A stretch of 64,000 nt of DNA from Candidatus Oscillochloris fontis. GTDB lineage: Bacteria; Chloroflexota; Chloroflexia; Chloroflexales; Chloroflexaceae. Position 1 is the first letter of the stretch. Each line of letters opens with the position of its first letter. Positions 3,597 through 60,413 of the stretch are shown here, one piece after another. The stretch is taken from the NCBI RefSeq assembly GCF_004138135.1, contig NZ_RYFD01000024.1, forward strand, positions 1 through 64,000, given 5' to 3'. Under the pieces are notes generated by a model. It was not told where the DNA came from, searched no databases, and was given only the letters and a program-made list of their open reading frames with translations. Position numbers and translations under genes: made by a program.

Positions 3597-3710
3597 TTGG
3601 TTTTGACGCAAAGGCGCAGTTGATGCAAAGGCACTTTTGGTTTTGACGCAAAGGCGCAGTTGATGCAAAGGCACTTTTGGTTTTGACGCAAAGGCGCAGA
3701 GGCGCAAAGA
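3597..3710. repeat. Three tandem 40-bp family A units
   Basis: A 40-bp unit beginning TTGGTTTTGACGCAAAGGCG is repeated at steps of exactly 40 (TTTTGACGCA at 3601, 3641 and 3681); the third copy is truncated. The core matches the dispersed family A repeat. It lies in the 226-nt gap between cydB and cydDC, so it is probably transcribed within the operon. Confidence 0.9.
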
Positions 3711-3724
3711 TTTTTATATATTTT

Positions 3725-3804
3725 GCGTCGTTGCGTCGTTGCGTCGTTGCGTCGTTGCGTCGTTGCGTCGTTGCGTCGTTGCGTCGTTGCGTCGTTGCGT
3801 CGTT
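3725..3804. repeat. Octanucleotide array (GCGTCGTT)x10
   Basis: Ten perfect, uninterrupted copies of GCGTCGTT, starting three codons after the cydB stop. The motif resembles the TTGCGTC core of family A, so it may have arisen by slippage within such an element. Arrays like this can vary in length between isolates. Confidence 0.97.
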
Positions 3805-3807
3805 GAC

Positions 3808-4821
3808 CTAATACGTCAACTCGCTCTTGATACTGACCCGATGGCGGAAGACCCAATAGCTCCATGCCTGATAGCCCAAGACAATCGGCAAGAAGATCAG
3901 CGCCACAAACGACATGATCGTGAGTGTCTTGGGGCTAGACGACGCATTGTAGATCGTCAGGCTCCACTCCGGGTTGAGGTTAGAGACCAACACACGGGGG
4001 AAGAGCAGCATAAAGATCGTGATCACCGAAAGGCCAATATTGAGTGAGGTCATCACGAAGCCCCAACCGAGGCGCTTGGTGTTGACAAAATAGGCCGCGC
4101 CGAAGAGTGAGAGCAGCGAAGCCATCGGCACAAAGCCGGGGTCAACCCCCAGATGCTCAATTGCATCGGTGAAGAAGTAGGTGGCAATGATGAACGCCAC
4201 TACGATCACCGTCGCCACCGGGCCAACCCGCAGCGTCATCTTCATCGCCCGCTCACGCAACGCATCGGTAGTCTTGAGATCAAGATAGACCGCGCCATGG
4301 AGCGTAAAGAGCGTGAAACTCGCCAGACCACCCAGGAGTGCATAGGGGTTGAGCAGATCGAAGAAGGTGCCGACATAGTTCATCTCGGCATCAATCTTCA
4401 CCCCATAGACCATGTTCGCAATCGCGACTCCCCAGAGCAGCGCCGGTACCGCACTCCCAAAGAAGATCGCCCAATCCCATACCATCCGCCAACGCGGATT
4501 CTCGTCCTTGCTGCGGTATTCAAAGGCAACAGCCCGCACGATCAGGCCCAGCAGCAACAGGAAGAGCGCCATATAAAAGCCACTGAAGAGCGTGGCATAC
4601 CAGTGGGGGAAGGCGGCAAAGATCGCACCACCAGCGGTCAGCAACCAGACCTCATTCCCATCCCACACCGGGCCAATCGTATTGATGATCACCCGCCGTT
4701 CGGTGTCATTCTTACCCAAAAAGGGCAACAGAATACCCACCCCGTAATCGAAGCCCTCCAGGATAAAGAAGCCGACAAAGAGAACCGTGATCAAGATGAA
4801 CCAGAGGATATTGAGATCCAT
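3808..4821 (-). CDS. cydB: Cytochrome bd ubiquinol oxidase subunit II
   Basis: CydB pairs with CydA in the membrane quinol oxidase that reduces O2 to water with high affinity. The 337-residue protein has the typical hydrophobic N-terminus with the family signature EGFDYGVG (about 23-30), GPVWDGNEVWLLTAGG (about 50-65) and about nine TM segments. Length is normal for the short type. The ATG is preceded by AAGGAG and lies 11 nt after the cydA stop, so the two are co-transcribed and probably translationally linked. In an anoxygenic phototroph this oxidase would scavenge oxygen or support microaerobic respiration (inference). Confidence 0.97.
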   Translation of the reverse strand: MDLNILWFILITVLFVGFFILEGFDYGVGILLPFLGKNDTERRVIINTIGPVWDGNEVWLLTAGGAIFAAFPHWYATLFSGFYMALFLLLLGLIVRAVAFEYRSKDENPRWRMVWDWAIFFGSAVPALLWGVAIANMVYGVKIDAEMNYVGTFFDLLNPYALLGGLASFTLFTLHGAVYLDLKTTDALRERAMKMTLRVGPVATVIVVAFIIATYFFTDAIEHLGVDPGFVPMASLLSLFGAAYFVNTKRLGWGFVMTSLNIGLSVITIFMLLFPRVLVSNLNPEWSLTIYNASSSPKTLTIMSFVALIFLPIVLGYQAWSYWVFRHRVSIKSELTY

Positions 4822-6363: not shown

Positions 6364-6480
6364 TTTGGGGCGTAGCCCCAAGCCCCATGTTTGGTTGATT
6401 TTTGGCCGCTTCGCCGCCAAAAATCAACCAAACAAGATCTTCGGAGGCGGCAAGCCGCCCCCGATCCCCCACCGGCGGTA
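6364..6480. repeat. Family B nested palindromic element, copy 1
   Basis: Contains GGGGCGTAGCCCC, then a long hairpin around TTC (arms about 6389-6409 and 6413-6433, one mismatch), then GATCTTCGGAGGCGGC and the CCCACCGG end typical of the family. It sits just upstream of the der promoter. Confidence 0.88.
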
Positions 6481-6496
6481 GCATAAGCCCGACTTT

Positions 6497-7940: not shown

Positions 7941-8014
7941 GTAGGGGCGAAGCATCGCCCCCACTAATGATGGGTATTCCCCGATCTCATACTGGGGCGA
8001 TGCTTCGCCCCTAC
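7941..8014. repeat. Family C inverted repeat, copy 1
   Basis: Arms GTAGGGGCGAAGCATCGCCCC and its reverse complement (7941-7961, 7994-8014) are separated by 32 bp. The repeat starts on the base after the der stop codon and fills the gap to the next gene. It could fold into a strong hairpin in the der mRNA, but there is no T-run. Confidence 0.93.
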
Positions 8015-8037
8015 ACGCCCCAAACAAAGATACCGCC

Positions 8038-19890: not shown

Positions 19891-20032
19891 TTAGGGCTAC
19901 CGCCCTAAAACCCATGGTTGGGGCTACGCCCCAAACCTGCTTTTTTCTCATAAGTTGGCGGCTTCGCCGCCAACTTACGAGAAGAAAAAATCTTCGGGGG
20001 AGGCAAAGCATCCTCCGAACCCCACCGGAGGT
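19891..20032. repeat. Family B nested palindromic element, copy 2
   Basis: GGGGCTACGCCCC is followed by a hairpin around GGCGGC-TTC-GCCGCC (arms 19947-19962 and 19966-19981, one mismatch), then TCTTCGGGGGAGGC and the CCCACCGGAGG end. It fills the gap between the lon promoter and the next operon. Confidence 0.87.
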
Positions 20033-20090
20033 AAACCCAACAAGTTGTGCTACACTATGGTTATACAGCATCAAAGGGAGGGGTGGTACT

Positions 20091-22193: not shown

Positions 22194-22352
22194 AGGCGAA
22201 GCATTGCCACCAGGGAATGGGCAAAGTCACCTCCGGTGGAGGTTCGGGGGCGGCGAAGCCGCCCCCGAAGATCTTTTTTGTTGTGTTTTGGCGGCTTCGC
22301 CGCCAAAACACAACAAAAACTGAGGTTTGGGCACAGCCCCGGCGAAGCCGCC
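22190..22352. repeat. Half family C unit plus family B element, copy 3
   Basis: Starts with GTAGAGGCGAAGCATTGCC, followed by CACCTCCGGTGG, GGGGGCGGCGAAGCCGCCCCC, and a perfect 21-bp hairpin around TTC (arms 22275-22295 and 22299-22319). It ends with a degenerate GGGCACAGCCCC. The element lies between the DUF2064 gene and the next promoter. Confidence 0.88.
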
Positions 22353-24821: not shown

Positions 24822-24851
24822 ACGTGGCCTCCTGAGTACGTGTTCACACAT

Positions 24852-24930
24852 GTTGACGCAAAGACGCCAAGGCGCAAAGTTTTGAATAGCATGACTAATC
24901 GCAACCTTTGCGCCTTCGCGCCTTCGCGTA
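24852..24930. repeat. Family A inverted repeat
   Basis: TTGACGCAAAGACGCCAAGG on one side and a CCTTTGCGCCTTCGCG arm on the other, with a TGTTCACAC flank. It occupies the 83-nt gap between the SH3 gene and the exonuclease-WYL gene, and its flank supplies an upstream ATG to the latter. Confidence 0.88.
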
Positions 24931-28212: not shown

Positions 28213-28345
28213 GGTCACAGTTCTCCTAGCATTCCGGTTTTGACGCAAAGACGCCAAGGCGCAAAGCCTTCACTATAGGCTCGATCACAACCTTTGCGCC
28301 TTGGCGTCAAAACGGGTATTCTGTTTACCCCAAGTATGAACAATC
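28213..28345. repeat. Family A inverted repeat with conserved flanks
   Basis: Core arms at about 28238-28262 and 28291-28312 carry GACGCAAAGACGCCAAGGCG and its complement. The left flank, GTCACAGTTCTCCTAGCATTCCGG, is the reverse complement of flanks seen beside the copies at 58471 and 60281; the right flank CCCCAAGTATGAAC matches that of the copy at 55841. Confidence 0.88.
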
Positions 28346-29104: not shown

Positions 29105-29439
29105 GACAAGACGTATGGGGCGCGTCGTGACGCGCCCCTACGCGGTATTCCATAAAGCGAATGACTATGCGGCGAAGCCGCTCCCGAAGATCTTTTTTGT
29201 TGGTGTTTGGCGGCTTCGCCGCCAAACACCAACAAAAATTGGAACTTGGGGCGTAGCCCTAATGACTTTGCACATGCCCTGGGGAGAGGGGGGTATATCT
29301 ATAACATCCGTCTTAAGAATGATCTTCCTCTCCGCCGGATAGCCACCTCAACACTAGCCCATTGACCCGTGTATTGCTGACAGATTGTGGGTATGCTACG
29401 CCTAGCCACAAGAGAGAGTGCAATACGTGGGAGAGACAG
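29105..29439. repeat. Repeat-filled gap: family D half unit and family B copy 4
   Basis: 29116-29150 is a family D palindrome (GGGCGCGTCGTGACGCGCCC) followed by CCTACGCGGTATTCC, the same junction as at 35778. 29168-29280 is a family B element with a perfect 21-bp hairpin around TTC (29194-29214, 29218-29238), then GGGCGTAGCCC and ACTTTGCACATGCCC. The rest, to the next ATG, is a leader without clear features. Confidence 0.85.
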
Positions 29440-32164: not shown

Positions 32165-35100
32165 GTCCCACAAACATCTACACCGTTGGCGGTACGGTTC
32201 AGGCCGGGCAGGGTATCTACATCCCGCGTCGGGCCGATGATGAACTACTGGGACTGTGTCGGGCGGGCACCTTCGCCTACATCCTCACCGCCCGCCAGAT
32301 GGGCAAGTCGAGCCTGATGGTACGCACAGCCGAGCGGCTGGAGCAAGAGGGGACACGCACGGCCCTGATTGATCTGACCAAATTGGGAGCCAAGGCGAGT
32401 GCTGAACAGTGGTACCTCGGTTTTCTGGTCGAACTGGCCGACCAGCTTGGCCTCGCCAGCGACGTACTCGACTGGTGGCAAGCGCAGGCCCACTTGCCGA
32501 TGGCCCAGCGGATGAGCCTCTTTTGTAGCACAGTGGTACTGGCCGAAATGACTGAGCCGGTGGTAATCTTTGTTGATGAGATTGATAGCACCCTCAGCCT
32601 CGACTTCACCGACGACTTCTTTGCCGCCATTCGCGCCCTCTACAACGCCCGTGCGGGCGACGAACAGATACGCCGCCTCACCTTCGTACTGATCGGTGTC
32701 GCTACCCCCGGCGACCTGATCCGTGACCCGAAGCGTACCCCGTTTAACATTGGTGTCCGGGTTGACCTAGAGGATTTTAGCCCCCAAGAGGCTGCACCCC
32801 TGGCCGCCGGGTTGAACCTACCTGCCGACGAGGCTACGCGGGTATTAGGCGATATACTGCGCTGGACGAATGGACACCCCTACCTGACCCAGCGGCTCTG
32901 TCGGGCGCTGAGTACCCACGAGCGGGAGAGTTGGGACGCAGCGGCGCTTGAGGCCACGGTGAGCGCAACCTTCTTTGGCGAAGAGAGCGAACGCGACCAC
33001 AACCTACAATTTGTGCGCGACATGCTGGTCGAGCGTAGTCCAGATCGCATCGGCGTGCTCAAGCTCTACCAAACCATTCGGCTTGGGCGGCGACCAGTAC
33101 CGGACGAGGAGCAATCGCTAAACCACGCCCACCTCAAGCTGAGCGGCATCGTGCGGCGCAGCGAGCGCCACCTCCAGGTACGCAACCAGATCTATGCTAC
33201 CGTCTTCAACCCCACCTGGATCAAGCAGCACTGGCCGCTCAGTTGGTGGCAGGGCATCCCGGTGGGGGTGCGGATTGCCGGGGGGCTGGCGCTCATCTCA
33301 CTGATCGTACTATCCGTCGTCACCAGCCTGCTATTTCAGGCACTACACACCGCCGATGAACGCCTACGCATCTCCAACGCCCAGCGGCTCGCCTTCGCCG
33401 CACAAAGCCTGCCAGAAGAAAAGCAAGAACCGGCTCTGCAACTAGCCTACTACGCATATAGACTCGACCAGAATAGTATTACCGAGCAAGTGCTCCATGA
33501 CCTCGTTAATCAGCGATCATGGGGACCCACTGTCCTCTCTGGACACACATCTTCTGTCAATAGCGCGGTCTTCAGCCCTGATGGTATCCGCATTCTCACT
33601 GCATCAGATGATGGCACAGCACGGCTGTGGGATGCCCAGGGCCAAATAGCAACCCTCTCTGGACACACGAGTAGTGTCTGGAGTGCCGTCTTCAGCCCCG
33701 ATGGAACGCGCATCCTCACTGCATCAGCAGATAGTACAGCGCGGCTGTGGGATGATCAAGGCCAACTTCTGGCAACCCTCTCTGGACACACAAGTAGTGT
33801 CTGGAGCGCAGTCTTCAGCCCCGATGGAACGCGCATTCTCACTGCATCAGATGATGGCACGGCGCGGCTGTGGGATGCCCAAGGTCAACCACTAGCAACC
33901 CTAGAGGGACACACAGGTGGTATCAGGAGCGCCGTCTTCAACCCTGATGGTACCCACATCCTCACTGCATCATATGATCGCACGGCACGGCTGTGGGGTG
34001 TTCAGGGCCAACCACTAGCAACCCTAGAGGGACACACAGGTAGTATCAGGAGCGCGGTTTTCAGCCCCGATGGCACTCGCATCCTCACAGCCTCAGCAGA
34101 TGGCACGGCACGGCTGTGGGATACCCAAGGACAATCACTGGTGACCCTCTCTGGACACACTGATGCTGTCTGGAGCGCGGTCTTCAGCCCGGATCAAACC
34201 CGCATCCTTACTGCATCACGAGATGATACGGCACGGCTGTGGGATGCCCAGGGCCAACCACTAGCGACCCTCTCTGGTCACACGGAGCAGGTCAATAGCG
34301 CGGTTTTCAGCCCCGACGGCACCCACATCCTCACTGCATCAGATGATGGCACGGCACGGCTGTGGGTTGCGATAGAAAAGCCGTTGGCTACTCTCGACAA
34401 TTATCCATCTGGTATCGAAAGCGCGGTCTTCAGCCCGGATCAAACCCACATCCTCACCACCTCACGTAATCACACAGCGCAGGTATGGAATACACAGGGT
34501 AAACTTCTCACAACCCTAGATGGAACTACGAGCGCAATCTTTAGCCCCGACGGCACTCGCATCCTTACCGCCTCGGATGATCGCACGGCGCGGCTGTGGG
34601 ATAATCAAGGCCGTTTGCTGACAACTCTCTCCGGTCATACAGATTCGGTTAATAGCGCAATCTTTAGCCCCAACGGCACTCGCATCCTTACCGCCTCGGA
34701 TGATCGCACGGTGCGGCTGTGGGATAATCAAGGCCAACTGATGATGACACTTCCTGGCCATACGAACTGGTTCAAAAGCGCCGTCTTCAGCCCCGATGGT
34801 ACCCGCATCCTTACCACATTAGGAGATGATAAGACGGCGCATCTGTGGGACACGACAGGAAAGCCACTGGCTACGCTGACTGGTCACATGGCTCCTATCA
34901 ATAGCGCAGTCTTCAGCCCAGATGGGCGGCACATCCTCACCCTATCTTTCGACAACACGGTACGCCTGTGGGATACAACAGGAAAGCCACTGGCTACACT
35001 GACTGGTCACACGGCTCCTATCAATAGCACAGTCTTCAGTCCAGGTGGGATTCTCATCCTTACTACATCATCCGATAACAGAGTGTACCTATGGAACACG

Positions 35101-35487
35101 ACAGGAAAACTACTAGCTATACTGGTCGGGCACACAGGTGATATCAACAGCGCAATCTTCAGTCCCGACAGCACCCTCATCCTCACCGCCTCTGATGATC
35201 GCACAGCGCGGCTATGGGATGCAACAGGAAAACCACTAGCTACGCTGGCTGGACACGCATCTTCTGTCAATAGTGCGGTCTTCAACCTCGATGGGCGGCG
35301 CATCCTCACTGCCTCGAATGATGGCACGGCACGCCAGTATTTTGTCTACCCGGAGGATCTGCTAAATGCGGCGGCATGCCGGATCGGGCGCGACCTGACG
35401 AGTGCGGAGATTGCCCTATACAACGTCCCCGATCTGCCGCCCATCCCCCTGGAGGAACGGGTGTGTCCAACGCTGGGGGAGCCGTAG
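32161..35487 (+). CDS. STAND-like ATPase with TM helix and 15 WD40 repeats
   Basis: 1108 residues. The N-terminal ATPase, same family as in the upstream gene, has Walker A LTARQMGKSS (42-51) and Walker B VVIFVDEIDS (134-143), then a helical region, a TM helix (about 370-392), and 15 WD40 repeats (about 458-1060). The C-terminal CRIGRDLTSAEIALY...CP motif is typical of repeat-bearing STAND proteins. Such proteins oligomerise when repeats bind a trigger. Repeat 9 lacks about 4 residues. Translational coupling to the CHAT gene suggests a sensor-protease pair. The neighbour is probably its effector (inference). Confidence 0.9.
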   Translation: MSPTNIYTVGGTVQAGQGIYIPRRADDELLGLCRAGTFAYILTARQMGKSSLMVRTAERLEQEGTRTALIDLTKLGAKASAEQWYLGFLVELADQLGLASDVLDWWQAQAHLPMAQRMSLFCSTVVLAEMTEPVVIFVDEIDSTLSLDFTDDFFAAIRALYNARAGDEQIRRLTFVLIGVATPGDLIRDPKRTPFNIGVRVDLEDFSPQEAAPLAAGLNLPADEATRVLGDILRWTNGHPYLTQRLCRALSTHERESWDAAALEATVSATFFGEESERDHNLQFVRDMLVERSPDRIGVLKLYQTIRLGRRPVPDEEQSLNHAHLKLSGIVRRSERHLQVRNQIYATVFNPTWIKQHWPLSWWQGIPVGVRIAGGLALISLIVLSVVTSLLFQALHTADERLRISNAQRLAFAAQSLPEEKQEPALQLAYYAYRLDQNSITEQVLHDLVNQRSWGPTVLSGHTSSVNSAVFSPDGIRILTASDDGTARLWDAQGQIATLSGHTSSVWSAVFSPDGTRILTASADSTARLWDDQGQLLATLSGHTSSVWSAVFSPDGTRILTASDDGTARLWDAQGQPLATLEGHTGGIRSAVFNPDGTHILTASYDRTARLWGVQGQPLATLEGHTGSIRSAVFSPDGTRILTASADGTARLWDTQGQSLVTLSGHTDAVWSAVFSPDQTRILTASRDDTARLWDAQGQPLATLSGHTEQVNSAVFSPDGTHILTASDDGTARLWVAIEKPLATLDNYPSGIESAVFSPDQTHILTTSRNHTAQVWNTQGKLLTTLDGTTSAIFSPDGTRILTASDDRTARLWDNQGRLLTTLSGHTDSVNSAIFSPNGTRILTASDDRTVRLWDNQGQLMMTLPGHTNWFKSAVFSPDGTRILTTLGDDKTAHLWDTTGKPLATLTGHMAPINSAVFSPDGRHILTLSFDNTVRLWDTTGKPLATLTGHTAPINSTVFSPGGILILTTSSDNRVYLWNTTGKLLAILVGHTGDINSAIFSPDSTLILTASDDRTARLWDATGKPLATLAGHASSVNSAVFNLDGRRILTASNDGTARQYFVYPEDLLNAAACRIGRDLTSAEIALYNVPDLPPIPLEERVCPTLGEP
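33529..35345 (+). repeat. Tandem WD40-coding repeats, about 120-bp unit
   Basis: Fifteen copies of about 40 codons share SGHT...SAVFSPDGTRILTASDDGTARLWD. Neighbouring copies are nearly identical in DNA: the 60-odd bases starting at 34551 and at 34674 differ at one place, and GCGGTCTTCAGCCCGGATCA recurs at about 34178 and 34421. This points to recent duplication or gene conversion. Confidence 0.93.
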
Positions 35488-35698: not shown

Positions 35699-35881
35699 TG
35701 TAGGGGCGCGTCGTGACGCGCCCACGGGATGCACCGCTATGGTGGGGCACACGGGCCGGGCGCGTCACGACGCGCTCCTACGCGGTATTCTTGAAATGGA
35801 GTTTAGGGCACCCCTACATCCTCTGCGTTCCTCTGTGTCCTCTGCGGTCAAAAACTAGGGCGCATCACGATGCGCCCCTAC
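35699..35881. repeat. Family D pair, family F half and a family D end
   Basis: 35699-35782 is a family D pair (TGTAGGGGCGCGTCGTGACG ... GCGCGTCACGACGCGCTCCTA). 35817-35855 is the CTCTGCG half of family F, and 35858-35881 is GCGCATCACGATGCGCCCCTAC, whose CTA is the glmS stop codon read on the minus strand. The whole gap 35488-35877 is repeats; no gene is seen. Confidence 0.87.
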
Positions 35882-37725
35882 TCCACCGTCACGCTCTTGG
35901 CCAGGTTGCGCGGCTGGTCCACGTCGCAGCCGCGCCGTACCGCCACTTCGTAGGCCAGCAGTTGCAATGGGATGACGGTGAGGATAGGCTGGAGCAGCGG
36001 GAGGGTGCTGGGTACGGTGATCACATGGCTGGCTTTTTCGGCCAGCAGGTGATCGCCTTCACTGCCAATCGCGATGACTTGGCCACCACGCGCCTTGACC
36101 TGCTCGATGTTGCTGAGCATCTTTTCGTAGATGCCGTCTCGCGGGGCGATGCAGATGACCGGCATGCGCTCGTCAATGAGGGCGACGGGGCCGTGTTTCA
36201 TCTCGCCGGCGGGGTAGCCTTCGGCGTGGATGTAGCTGATCTCTTTGAGTTTGAGTGCGCCTTCGAGGGCAATCGGGTAGTTGGCTTGCCGCCCCAGAAA
36301 GAGTGCGTTGGTGGCGTGGTGGTAGCGGTCTGCGAGGTGGGCGCAGATGGGGGCGGCGGTTTCGAGTACGTGCGCCACTTTGCCGGGTAGTTCGATCAGC
36401 GCTTGGAGGTGCGGGCGGATCTGGTTGGGGGTGAGGGTGCCGCGTGCCTGACCGAGATAGAGTGCGAAGAGGTAGCTGGCCGCCAGCATTGAGGTGAAGG
36501 CTTTGGTTGAAGCAACGCCGATCTCTGGGCCAGCATGCAGGTAGAGCGGCCCGCCGTCGGCGACACGCGCCGCTTGGCTGCCAATCGCGTTGACCAGCGC
36601 GATGCTGGGGACGCCTTGGGTGCGCGCTTCTTCCATCGCCGCGAGGGTGTCCACCGTCTCGCCACTCTGGGTGATCGCCAGCAGCAGCGCATCGGCACCG
36701 AGCACCGGCTCGCGGTAGCGAAATTCGCTGGCATAGTCCACTTCGACCCGCACGCGGGCGAGGTGTTCGATCATGAATTTGGCCATCAGGCCAGCATGCC
36801 ATGCCGTGCCACATGCTGTGGCGTAGATGCGCTCAATCCGGCGCAGCGCGTTGGTGTCGAGTTTCAGATCATCAAGGAAGACCTGGCCCGCCTCCTGATC
36901 GATCCGCCCGCGCAGCACATCGGTGAGGGCACGCGGCTGCTCGGCGATCTCCTTCTGCATAAAATGTTTGAAGTCGCCTTTGGCCGCTGCGACCGGGTCC
37001 CAACTGATGTTGGTGATCGGACGGGTGACGGGTGTGCCATCGAGGCGGCTGATGCGGGCACCCTCGCGGGTGATCACGGCCAGATCGCGGTCTTCGAGGA
37101 AGATCAGATCGCGGGTGTAGTCGAGGATAGCGGGGATGTCAGAGGCGATGAAGGTCTCGTCTTCGCCCAAGCCGATCACCACGCCGCCAGCATTGCCGAG
37201 GCGCGCCGCGACAAGTGTGGCGGGTTCGTGGATGCAGAGCGCGACGACCGCATTGCCCCCGCGCAGATCGGCCATGGTGCGGCGCACGGCAGTTTCGAGC
37301 GAACCCGTCTGCTGGTAGTAGAGCCCGACGAGATGCGCGATCACCTCGGTGTCGGTCTGGGAGAGAAAGGTGTGGCCCGCCTCCATCAGACGACCCTTGA
37401 GTTCCAGGTAGTTCTCAACAATTCCGTTTTGGATGACGACAATCTCGCCGCTGGCGTCGCGGTGGGGGTGGGCGTTGATCTCGGTGACGCCGCCGTGGGT
37501 GGCCCAGCGCGTATGGCCCATGCCAACCGTGCCAGCCGCAGGTTCGCTGGCTAAGCGGGTGATCAGGTTGGCCAGTTTGCCCACGCTGCGCCGCAGTTGC
37601 AGCCCCTCGGTACCCAGGATGGCGATACCCGCCGAATCATAGCCGCGATACTCTAGCCGTTGCAAGCCACCAACAACCACGTCAGTGGCGTTGCGTTGGC
37701 CAATATATCCAACAATACCGCACAT
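35878..37725 (-). CDS. glmS: Glutamine-fructose-6-phosphate aminotransferase
   Basis: Makes glucosamine-6-phosphate, first step of amino-sugar synthesis for peptidoglycan. The 615-residue protein has the N-terminal glutaminase domain with nucleophile Cys2 (MCGIVGYIG) and two SIS isomerase domains (including ITQSGETVDTLAAM and the C-terminal LAKSVTVE signature). Length is normal. CAGGAG precedes the ATG. The stop codon TAG is part of a family D repeat. No glmS ribozyme is present: the leader is only about 30 nt. Confidence 0.98.
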   Translation of the reverse strand: MCGIVGYIGQRNATDVVVGGLQRLEYRGYDSAGIAILGTEGLQLRRSVGKLANLITRLASEPAAGTVGMGHTRWATHGGVTEINAHPHRDASGEIVVIQNGIVENYLELKGRLMEAGHTFLSQTDTEVIAHLVGLYYQQTGSLETAVRRTMADLRGGNAVVALCIHEPATLVAARLGNAGGVVIGLGEDETFIASDIPAILDYTRDLIFLEDRDLAVITREGARISRLDGTPVTRPITNISWDPVAAAKGDFKHFMQKEIAEQPRALTDVLRGRIDQEAGQVFLDDLKLDTNALRRIERIYATACGTAWHAGLMAKFMIEHLARVRVEVDYASEFRYREPVLGADALLLAITQSGETVDTLAAMEEARTQGVPSIALVNAIGSQAARVADGGPLYLHAGPEIGVASTKAFTSMLAASYLFALYLGQARGTLTPNQIRPHLQALIELPGKVAHVLETAAPICAHLADRYHHATNALFLGRQANYPIALEGALKLKEISYIHAEGYPAGEMKHGPVALIDERMPVICIAPRDGIYEKMLSNIEQVKARGGQVIAIGSEGDHLLAEKASHVITVPSTLPLLQPILTVIPLQLLAYEVAVRRGCDVDQPRNLAKSVTVE

Positions 37726-39437: not shown

Positions 39438-39507
39438 GGGCGAAGCATCGCCCCAGTGCGCACTGGGAATTTCATCTGTCGTTGGAGGGGCGATGCTTCG
39501 CCCCTAC
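39434..39507. repeat. Family C inverted repeat, copy 2
   Basis: GTAGGGGCGAAGCATCGCCCC (39434-39454) and its complement (39487-39507). The TAG in its first four bases is the aminotransferase stop codon. Confidence 0.94.
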
Positions 39508-39519
39508 TCGACCCCAACA

Positions 39520-43307: not shown

Positions 43308-43326
43308 TAGGTTTGCGGTTGTTTTG

Positions 43327-43470
43327 GCGGGGGTTCGGGGGCGGCTTCGCCGCCCCCGAAGATCTTTATTTATTGTTTTTTGGCGGCTTCGCCGCCAAAA
43401 AACAATAAAAATTGGAGTTTGGGGTGTAGCCCCAAGGACTTTGCACATGCCCGCCTCCCCACCGGAGGTG
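43327..43470. repeat. Family B nested palindromic element, copy 5
   Basis: GGGGGCGGCTTCGCCGCCCCC is followed by GATCTTTA and a 19-bp hairpin around TTC (43369-43387 and 43391-43409), then GGGGTGTAGCCCC, ACTTTGCACATGCCC and CCCACCGGAGGTGG. It fills the gap between gatA and the rpsR promoter. Confidence 0.9.
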
Positions 43471-45089: not shown

Positions 45090-45162
45090 GTAGGAGCGAA
45101 GCATCGCCCTCCATAGAGCAGGGGAACTCAAACGAGTTTGGAGGGCGATGCTTCGCCCCTAC
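45090..45162. repeat. Family C inverted repeat, copy 3
   Basis: GTAGGAGCGAAGCATCGCCC (45090-45113) pairs with 45139-45162, arms of 24 with one mismatch. It is not next to a stop codon in this case. Confidence 0.93.
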
Positions 45163-45183
45163 TTGATTTCTTGTCAACAAACA

Positions 45184-55838: not shown

Positions 55839-55960
55839 GGTTTTGACGCAAAGACGCCAAGTCGCAAAGCTTTCGAGGTAGACCCTCATCAAATCCTTTG
55901 CGTCTTTGCGCCTTGGCGTCAACACGAAGATGCTGTCTAGCCCAAGTGTGAACCGTTACT
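55839..55960. repeat. Family A inverted repeat with CCCAAGTGTGAAC flank
   Basis: Arms around TTGACGCAAAGACGCCAAG and CTTTGCGCCTTGGCGTC (55841-55923), then CACGAAGATGC and CCCAAGTGTGAACCGTTAC. It precedes the DUF2079 gene. Confidence 0.9.
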
Positions 55961-58366: not shown

Positions 58367-58390
58367 CACTTGAGGTAAACCGAAGCCTTT

Positions 58391-58500
58391 GATTGACGCA
58401 AAGACGCCAAGACGCAAAGGTTATGATGAGAGCCTCTATCTGAAAGCTTTGCGCCTTGGCGTCTTTGCGTTAAAACCGGGATGCGAGGAGAAGTGTGAAT
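58391..58500. repeat. Family A inverted repeat with GCGAGGAGAAGTGTGAA flank
   Basis: Arms at 58393-58419 and 58447-58470, then AAAACCGGGATGCGAGGAG and AAGTGTGAATAA. It fills the gap before the flippase gene. Confidence 0.9.
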
Positions 58501-58526
58501 AATTTTAAGATGTAGGAATGTAGCCT

Positions 58527-60188: not shown

Positions 60189-60214
60189 AATATTGGTAGA
60201 GCAGCCTTCAATCA

Positions 60215-60402
60215 TTGACGCAAAGACGCGAAGACGCGAAGGTTTTATTGAAGGCTTTGCGCCTCTGCGTCTTTGCGTCAAAACCGGAATGCGAGGAGAA
60301 GTGTGAACAGTTACCTAACATCCCAGTTTTGACGCCAAGGCGCAAAGTCTTCAAGAGAAGCCCCATCAAAATCTTTGCGTCTTGGCGTCTTTGCGTCAAC
60401 AT
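60215..60402. repeat. Two family A inverted repeats in tandem
   Basis: Copy 1 at 60215-60285, then AAACCGGAATGCGAGGAGAA and GTGTGAACAGTTAC; copy 2 at 60327-60400. The spacer between them is the same flank as at 58471-58500. They fill the gap to the glycosyltransferase gene at 60414. Confidence 0.9.
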
Positions 60403-60413
60403 ATGGATTCCCT

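Follow-up and report, generated by a model that had tools for sequence, protein, structure and literature searches.

A Multicopy MITE Family of Candidatus Oscillochloris fontis Whose Longest Hairpin Is Probably Homogenised by Template Switching

Introduction

How can the stem of a hairpin change from one copy of a repeat to the next and still be complementary within each copy? The question arises from the interval 43327-43470 of a 64,000-nt stretch of contig NZ_RYFD01000024.1 (the window), where an initial annotation recognized one of five copies of a palindromic repeat. Matched change on both arms was ascribed there either to selection on structure or to copying of one arm from the other, and the repeat itself was considered to be a structured RNA or a mobile palindrome similar to REP elements. 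Stem covariation is usually taken to prove that an RNA structure is under selection, and the family described here represents a natural counter-example, in which the covariation is very strong, looks mutational, and is accompanied by controls inside the same element.

Structure, Abundance and Location of the Family

A full copy is ~150 bp in length, has the termini YAGGGCATGKGCAAAGTC...GACTTTGCMCATGCCCTR, and contains three inner hairpins in the order left terminal repeat, CCTCCGGTGGGG, HP1, GATC, HP2, a short linker, HP3, and right terminal repeat. The outer blocks had been described as conserved, and this is borne out by HP1 (TTCGGGGGCGGC-NNN-GCCGCCCCCGAA), HP3 (TTGGGGC-NNN-GCCCCAA) and the CCTCCGGTGGGG block adjoining the terminal repeat. 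HP2, the central and longest hairpin, consists of a ~21-bp stem and a 3-nt loop. Smaller two-ended forms of 51–109 bp also occur and look like internal deletions. At ~150 bp and with 180 copies in the DNA examined, the elements are short, multicopy and non-coding, as MITEs are. In addition, a ~192–194-bp element with the same terminal repeats is found at L121:18897-19089 (C73:53898-54089) and C35:1884-2077; the interior of the L121 copy, the one that was read, is an unrelated imperfect palindrome.

The family is larger than the five copies of the initial annotation, which also missed the terminal repeats, the target duplications and the link to ISAs1 described below. Across the 4.46-Mb genome (139 contigs), a search for AGGGCATGKGCAAAGTC with two or fewer mismatches returned 269 terminal-repeat matches (133 + 136, as compared to 0 and 1 for the reversed-pattern control), and GGCGGCTTCGCCGCC occurs exactly at 177 sites. 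A profile search covering 1.24 Mb of stretches (the window among them) together with short loci recovered 180 separate copies, 132 of them with the core. When the stretches were scanned without reference to the family, 143 perfect hairpins of 16 bp or more in the stem came up, and 103 of them have the GGCGGC tip. A scan of public genomes with CCCCCGAAGATCTTTTTTG, in which records near the O. fontis genome may be omitted, gave only two unrelated-looking matches. By a crude, length-based set of ORF calls, predicted ORFs contain 39 of 160 copies versus 84% of random positions, and the same calls reveal no preference of the copies for a gene strand (24 same, 34 opposite) or for convergent or divergent gene pairs (24 and 23, respectively).

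All five copies reported for the window, at 6364, 19891, 22190, 29168 and 43327, were present upon re-reading. The interval 43327-43470 corresponds to one 5′-truncated copy at 43326..43453 (+ strand; nhmmer copy C80_43326 together with the sequence), which retains HP1, HP2, HP3 and the right terminal repeat and has its terminus at 43453. Its HP1 (43334..43360, +) reads TTCGGGGGCGGC-TTC-GCCGCCCCCGAA with the loop at 43346-43348; HP2 (43367..43411, +) has variable arms of 21 pairs around a TTC loop at 43388-43390, with one unpaired position near the outer end; HP3 (43419..43435, +) reads TTGGGGT-GTA-GCCCCAA with one T.G; and the right terminal inverted repeat (43437..43453) matches CGGGCATGTGCAAAGTC on the − strand with one mismatch. 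The copy at 29169..29280 (+) combines a perfect HP2 (29194-29238) with a broken HP1, an HP3 and a right terminal repeat at 29264-29280, and that at 22212..22340 (+) possesses a left terminal repeat (22212-22228), an HP1 with its loop at 22255-22257, a perfect HP2 (22275-22319) and an HP3 remnant. The two copies on the − strand are a member of a CTC-arm subfamily at 19917..20034 (HP2 at 19942-19986) and a decayed copy at 6365..6484 (HP2 at 6389-6433). The report that the outer arms vary between copies and match within each held up, as 0–2 of 21 HP2 positions are unpaired per window copy: one each at 6389-6433 and 43367-43411, two at 19942-19986, and none at 22275-22319 and 29194-29238. The tip GGCGGC-TTC-GCCGCC, said to be shared by all five, needs amendment, since the existing copy at 6364 reads GGCCGC-TTC-GCCGCC, with one unpaired change inside the tip.

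Termini, Target Duplications and a Candidate Transposase

The terminal inverted repeats are 17 bp in length, and a 10-bp target duplication was evident in 54 two-ended elements (each end within three mismatches, length 45–235 bp), where 10 flanking positions are 63–78% identical versus 26% in the control. In these 54 elements, the flank identity occurs in a single register, with C/T as the end bases at the left and G/A at the right. The terminal repeats and target duplications support the earlier suggestion of a mobile element and together fit a DDE transposase. An IS4/IS231 origin, guessed from an early reading of the duplication as 11–12 bp, was discarded in favor of ISAs1 on account of matching ends and the 10-bp register. 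Target duplications of ISAs1 elements are usually about 8–10 bp.

In sister species G002, the same core recurs in numerous copies with altered ends (CAGGGCGGTTGCAACGTC), and ISs of G002 and G005 encode ISAs1-family transposases (NF033564) flanked by matching ends. For example, ISAs1 ORFs at L182 and L191 in the sister species lie between AGGGCTGTTGCAAAGTC / GACGTTGCAACCGCCCT and AGGGCATGTGCAAAGTC / GACTTTGCTCAGGCCCT, with no target duplication visible around either IS, and two more ISAs1 fragments occur in G002 near a matching end. The NF033564 search gave 0 matches in G000, G001, G003 and G004, and no ISAs1 gene was detected in the family's own genome. Matches to DDE_Tnp_1 in that genome (C52, C121, C19) were considered as the parent and rejected, since the fetched flanks lack matching ends. 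Judging from the matching ends in sister species, an ISAs1-family transposase probably mobilizes the MITE in trans. The family resembles ISAs1-family MITEs in its sister-species ISAs1 ends, its target duplication, its lack of coding capacity and its internal-deletion size classes, but differs in having a three-hairpin core and a genome without a detected ISAs1 gene.

In sister species G001, the same ends mostly enclose another interior, and HP2-like hairpins stand alone. The G001 MITEs L223, L227, L228, L231 and L233 have the same terminal repeats around an interior of CCCTCTCCC...GGGAGAGGG hairpins; in this species, the MITE ends seem to have taken up a different palindrome.

Concerted Evolution of HP2

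Among 144 copies compared, HP2 is represented by 91 different left arms and 99 perfect stems. Its pairs are 96.5% Watson-Crick (106 of 3024 cells are not), and 2080 of 2160 outer-arm cells are paired versus 1408 ± 13 after shuffling. Matched changes on both sides, which are not phylogenetically independent counts, number 443 versus 81 ± 7 in the shuffled data, and sliding the register by 1–3 bases lowers pairing from 96% to 47–51%. The shuffling and register-slide controls thus exclude the possibility, raised in the initial annotation, that the arms match only by chance.

This concerted evolution is confined to HP2. In 47 two-ended copies, within-copy mismatch divided by between-copy divergence comes to 0.14 for HP2, 0.66 for HP1, 0.80 for the terminal inverted repeats and 1.05 for HP3. 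When copies were selected by their terminal repeats only, within-copy mismatch was 12.9% for the terminal repeats versus 2.8% for HP2 with two chance matches (L072 19215 and L099 11896) included, and 1.1% (10/924) for HP2 without them; in this sample, HP2 pairs are intact even in several copies with 5–7 terminal-repeat mismatches. Selection of cores by HP1 and HP3, with HP2 unused, yielded 64 with at least 17 of 20 HP2 positions paired, including 52 perfect stems, and nine others that have no hairpin and look like chance anchors; HP2 is therefore either near-perfect or absent. The effect is weaker in G002, where 4.5% of HP2 pairs are broken and only seven of 20 stems are perfect.

The kinds of change are also informative. 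HP2 mismatches in the 144 copies show no wobble preference (22 GT versus 20 AC), and 33 of 39 matched single steps between distinct perfect arms are transversions, which cannot pass via a G-U intermediate; G<->T on the left arm accounts for 28 of the 39, and T<->C, the easy U-G wobble path, for one. One-sided differences in the terminal repeats are instead mostly transitions (59/101; Fisher p = 4e-6 versus the matched steps), and one-sided HP2 differences are of mixed types, unlike the matched steps. Moreover, the loop inverts as a unit. The 144 loops include 70 GNA, 56 TNC, one GNC and one TNA, and the same arms are found with loops in both orientations (e.g., GAA in seven and TTC in six). 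The absence of wobble preference, the matched transversions and the loop inversion argue against selection at the RNA level and for arm-to-arm copying, one of the two explanations put forward at the outset.

The near confinement of loops to GNA and TNC suggests some constraint; DNA folding energies by loop type gave no separation, since all loops gave identical energy. The left arms are strongly biased toward G and T. In a wider set of HP1 hairpins, there are 61 GT and 32 AC mismatches, and HP1 may be subject to a weak RNA-level effect. HP2 was rejected as an intrinsic terminator: on either strand its 5′ arm is rich in T and its 3′ arm rich in A, the reverse of what a terminator has. HP1 with the GATCTTTTTT that follows it could act as a terminator, but convergent gene pairs show no excess of copies between them.

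Old Copies and Change in Place

HP2 pairing outlasts decay of the remaining element. The 61 copies without recognizable ends, a class that includes copies found partly via HP2 itself, have 55 different arms and 3.4% mismatch, with 42 fully paired over 20 positions. The G+T share of the left arm falls from 98% to 88% in copies without recognizable ends, with more A and C. The outlasting of decay by pairing is the main reason for thinking that the process acts on inserted copies, and the matched changes probably arose in place. No close relative was found to share an insertion; identity to the nearest species is only ~65–80% at the larger matching window segments, and change in place is for this reason deduced rather than observed. 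An orthologous insertion of the window copy was not seen in G001 or G002; in G002, a differently oriented remnant lies close to the matching spacer.

Proposed Mechanism and Alternatives

The best explanation, to which a probability of roughly 0.7 is assigned, is that the family consists of ISAs1-type MITEs in which template switching during replication homogenises the longest hairpin. HP2 would serve as the switch site: following mutation of one arm, the nascent strand may fold back or switch to the opposite strand and copy the other arm, whereby the change would be either removed or transferred to both arms, sometimes with inversion of the loop. HP2 could in this manner drift in sequence and stay a near-perfect palindrome, and the shorter hairpins and far-apart terminal repeats would be homogenised hardly or not at all. 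Template switching between inverted repeats is described as leaving homogenised arms and an inverted spacer, and is stated to favor transversions in bacteria (PMC8604942); loop inversions have also been described in PMC8794818. The transversion preference observed here fits in direction, leaving the predominance of G<->T over other transversions unaccounted for, and it counts against template switching that plain mutation and correction does not predict the G<->T excess among matched steps. Part of the arm diversity could also stem from the activity of numerous source copies that differ in their perfect arms.

The alternative that survives best, though it is improbable, is that HP2 is selected as DNA, as a cruciform or single-strand hairpin for transposition or protein binding, with matched changes confined to active sources and perfect arms passed on to the copies that insert. 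A GNA loop is present on one strand or the other in 126 of 144 copies, and GNA triloops are a class known to be ultra-stable in DNA, according to references cited in PMC11101458; the mostly G and T left arm and the predominance of HP2-type hairpins among the long perfect ones, judging from their GGCGGC tips, also agree with such a role. After insertion, however, HP2 would be expected to decay like the terminal repeats, and it does not. Moreover, both ends are present in elements of 51–79 bp that lack HP2, and a target duplication can be seen around several of these; HP2 therefore seems dispensable for movement. Somewhat less probable again is a reading in which HP2 is actively kept as a DNA module, cruciform or single-stranded, with its loop restricted on one strand to the ultra-stable GNA class and its arms largely to G and T; a dedicated process would then vary the two arms in matching steps, for the most part G<->T, so that every copy acquires a perfect hairpin of its own.

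It is quite unlikely that HP2 is a functional RNA hairpin, in a regulatory RNA or an mRNA, whose matched changes are selected compensatory mutations. The very strong covariation and the location of copies mostly between ORFs would be in keeping with a structured RNA as initially suggested, but G-U is not preferred, transversions dominate, matched T-to-C steps are among the rarest, the loop inverts, copies show no bias in gene orientation or between convergent and divergent pairs, copies without recognizable ends are just as well paired, and the window has 0 Rfam matches at the gathering score. Finally, a REP/BIME-type element with a RAYT (Y1 HUH) transposase as its mover, as the palindromes, high copy number, intergenic location and one Y1_Tnp match in the genome might suggest, is very improbable, given 17-bp terminal inverted repeats and a 10-bp target duplication that point to a DDE transposase, the matching ISAs1 ends, and the weak (24.8 bits) and partial (positions 63-118 of 121) nature of that sole Y1 match.

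Comparison with Known Systems

The proposed mechanism, template switching, is a known one, and in this case it would act throughout an entire mobile family. Quasipalindrome correction, or template-switch mutation, has been described in lacZ and thyA of E. coli (PMC7202029), in yeast genes (PMC8604942) and in RNA genes (PMC8794818), and it resembles the behavior of HP2 in its homogenised arms, changes of several bases together, inversion of the loop or spacer, preference for short spacers, and transversions, which are reported as favored in bacteria. The known cases are single loci or scattered events, whereas the MITE is one mobile family with well over a hundred replicates and with internal controls in its terminal repeats, HP1 and HP3. 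The G/T arm bias and the GNA/TNC loops are left unexplained by the sections of PMC7202029, PMC8604942 and PMC8794818 drawn upon here. REP/BIME elements with RAYT are similarly abundant intergenic palindromes; the present family differs in its terminal repeats, its target duplications and its single weak, partial RAYT-like match. Coding palindromes of Nematomorpha mitochondria (PMC6649704) and the palindromes of Volvox (PMC2670323) likewise make for genomes rich in perfect or near-perfect inverted repeats, but they occur in organelle DNA.

The many replicates of the family would lend themselves to measuring the rate of arm-to-arm copying against stem length, loop and arm distance. They also serve as a warning that calling non-coding RNAs from covariation alone is risky in mobile palindromes.

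Other Repeats

Several other repeats were seen in the same DNA. A second dispersed family around GACGCAAAGACGCCAAGGCGCAAAG, often in inverted pairs, occurs in the window at 3679-3714, 24849-24884, 28236-28308, 55839-55953, 58389-58504 and 60211-60410. At 3707-3826, the 8-mer TTGCGTCG forms a tandem array that adjoins copies of GACGCAAAG and is immediately preceded by a 40-bp direct repeat. Short GC-rich palindromes (GGGCGCGTCGTGACGCGCCC, GGGGCGATGCTTCGCCCC) are scattered at 1836-1931, 7988-8018, 29118-29150, 35704-35890, 39481-39511 and 45136-45166. Some 15 repeats spaced mostly at 123 bp (CTGGACACACA...) occupy 33524-35340, by appearance a WD40-type repeat gene. Finally, a repeated stretch, FNPPGGFGAFGT / FQSAGRIWGFWN, lies beside a transposase ORF at L064:227-1597 and resembles a CRISPR-like direct-repeat array.
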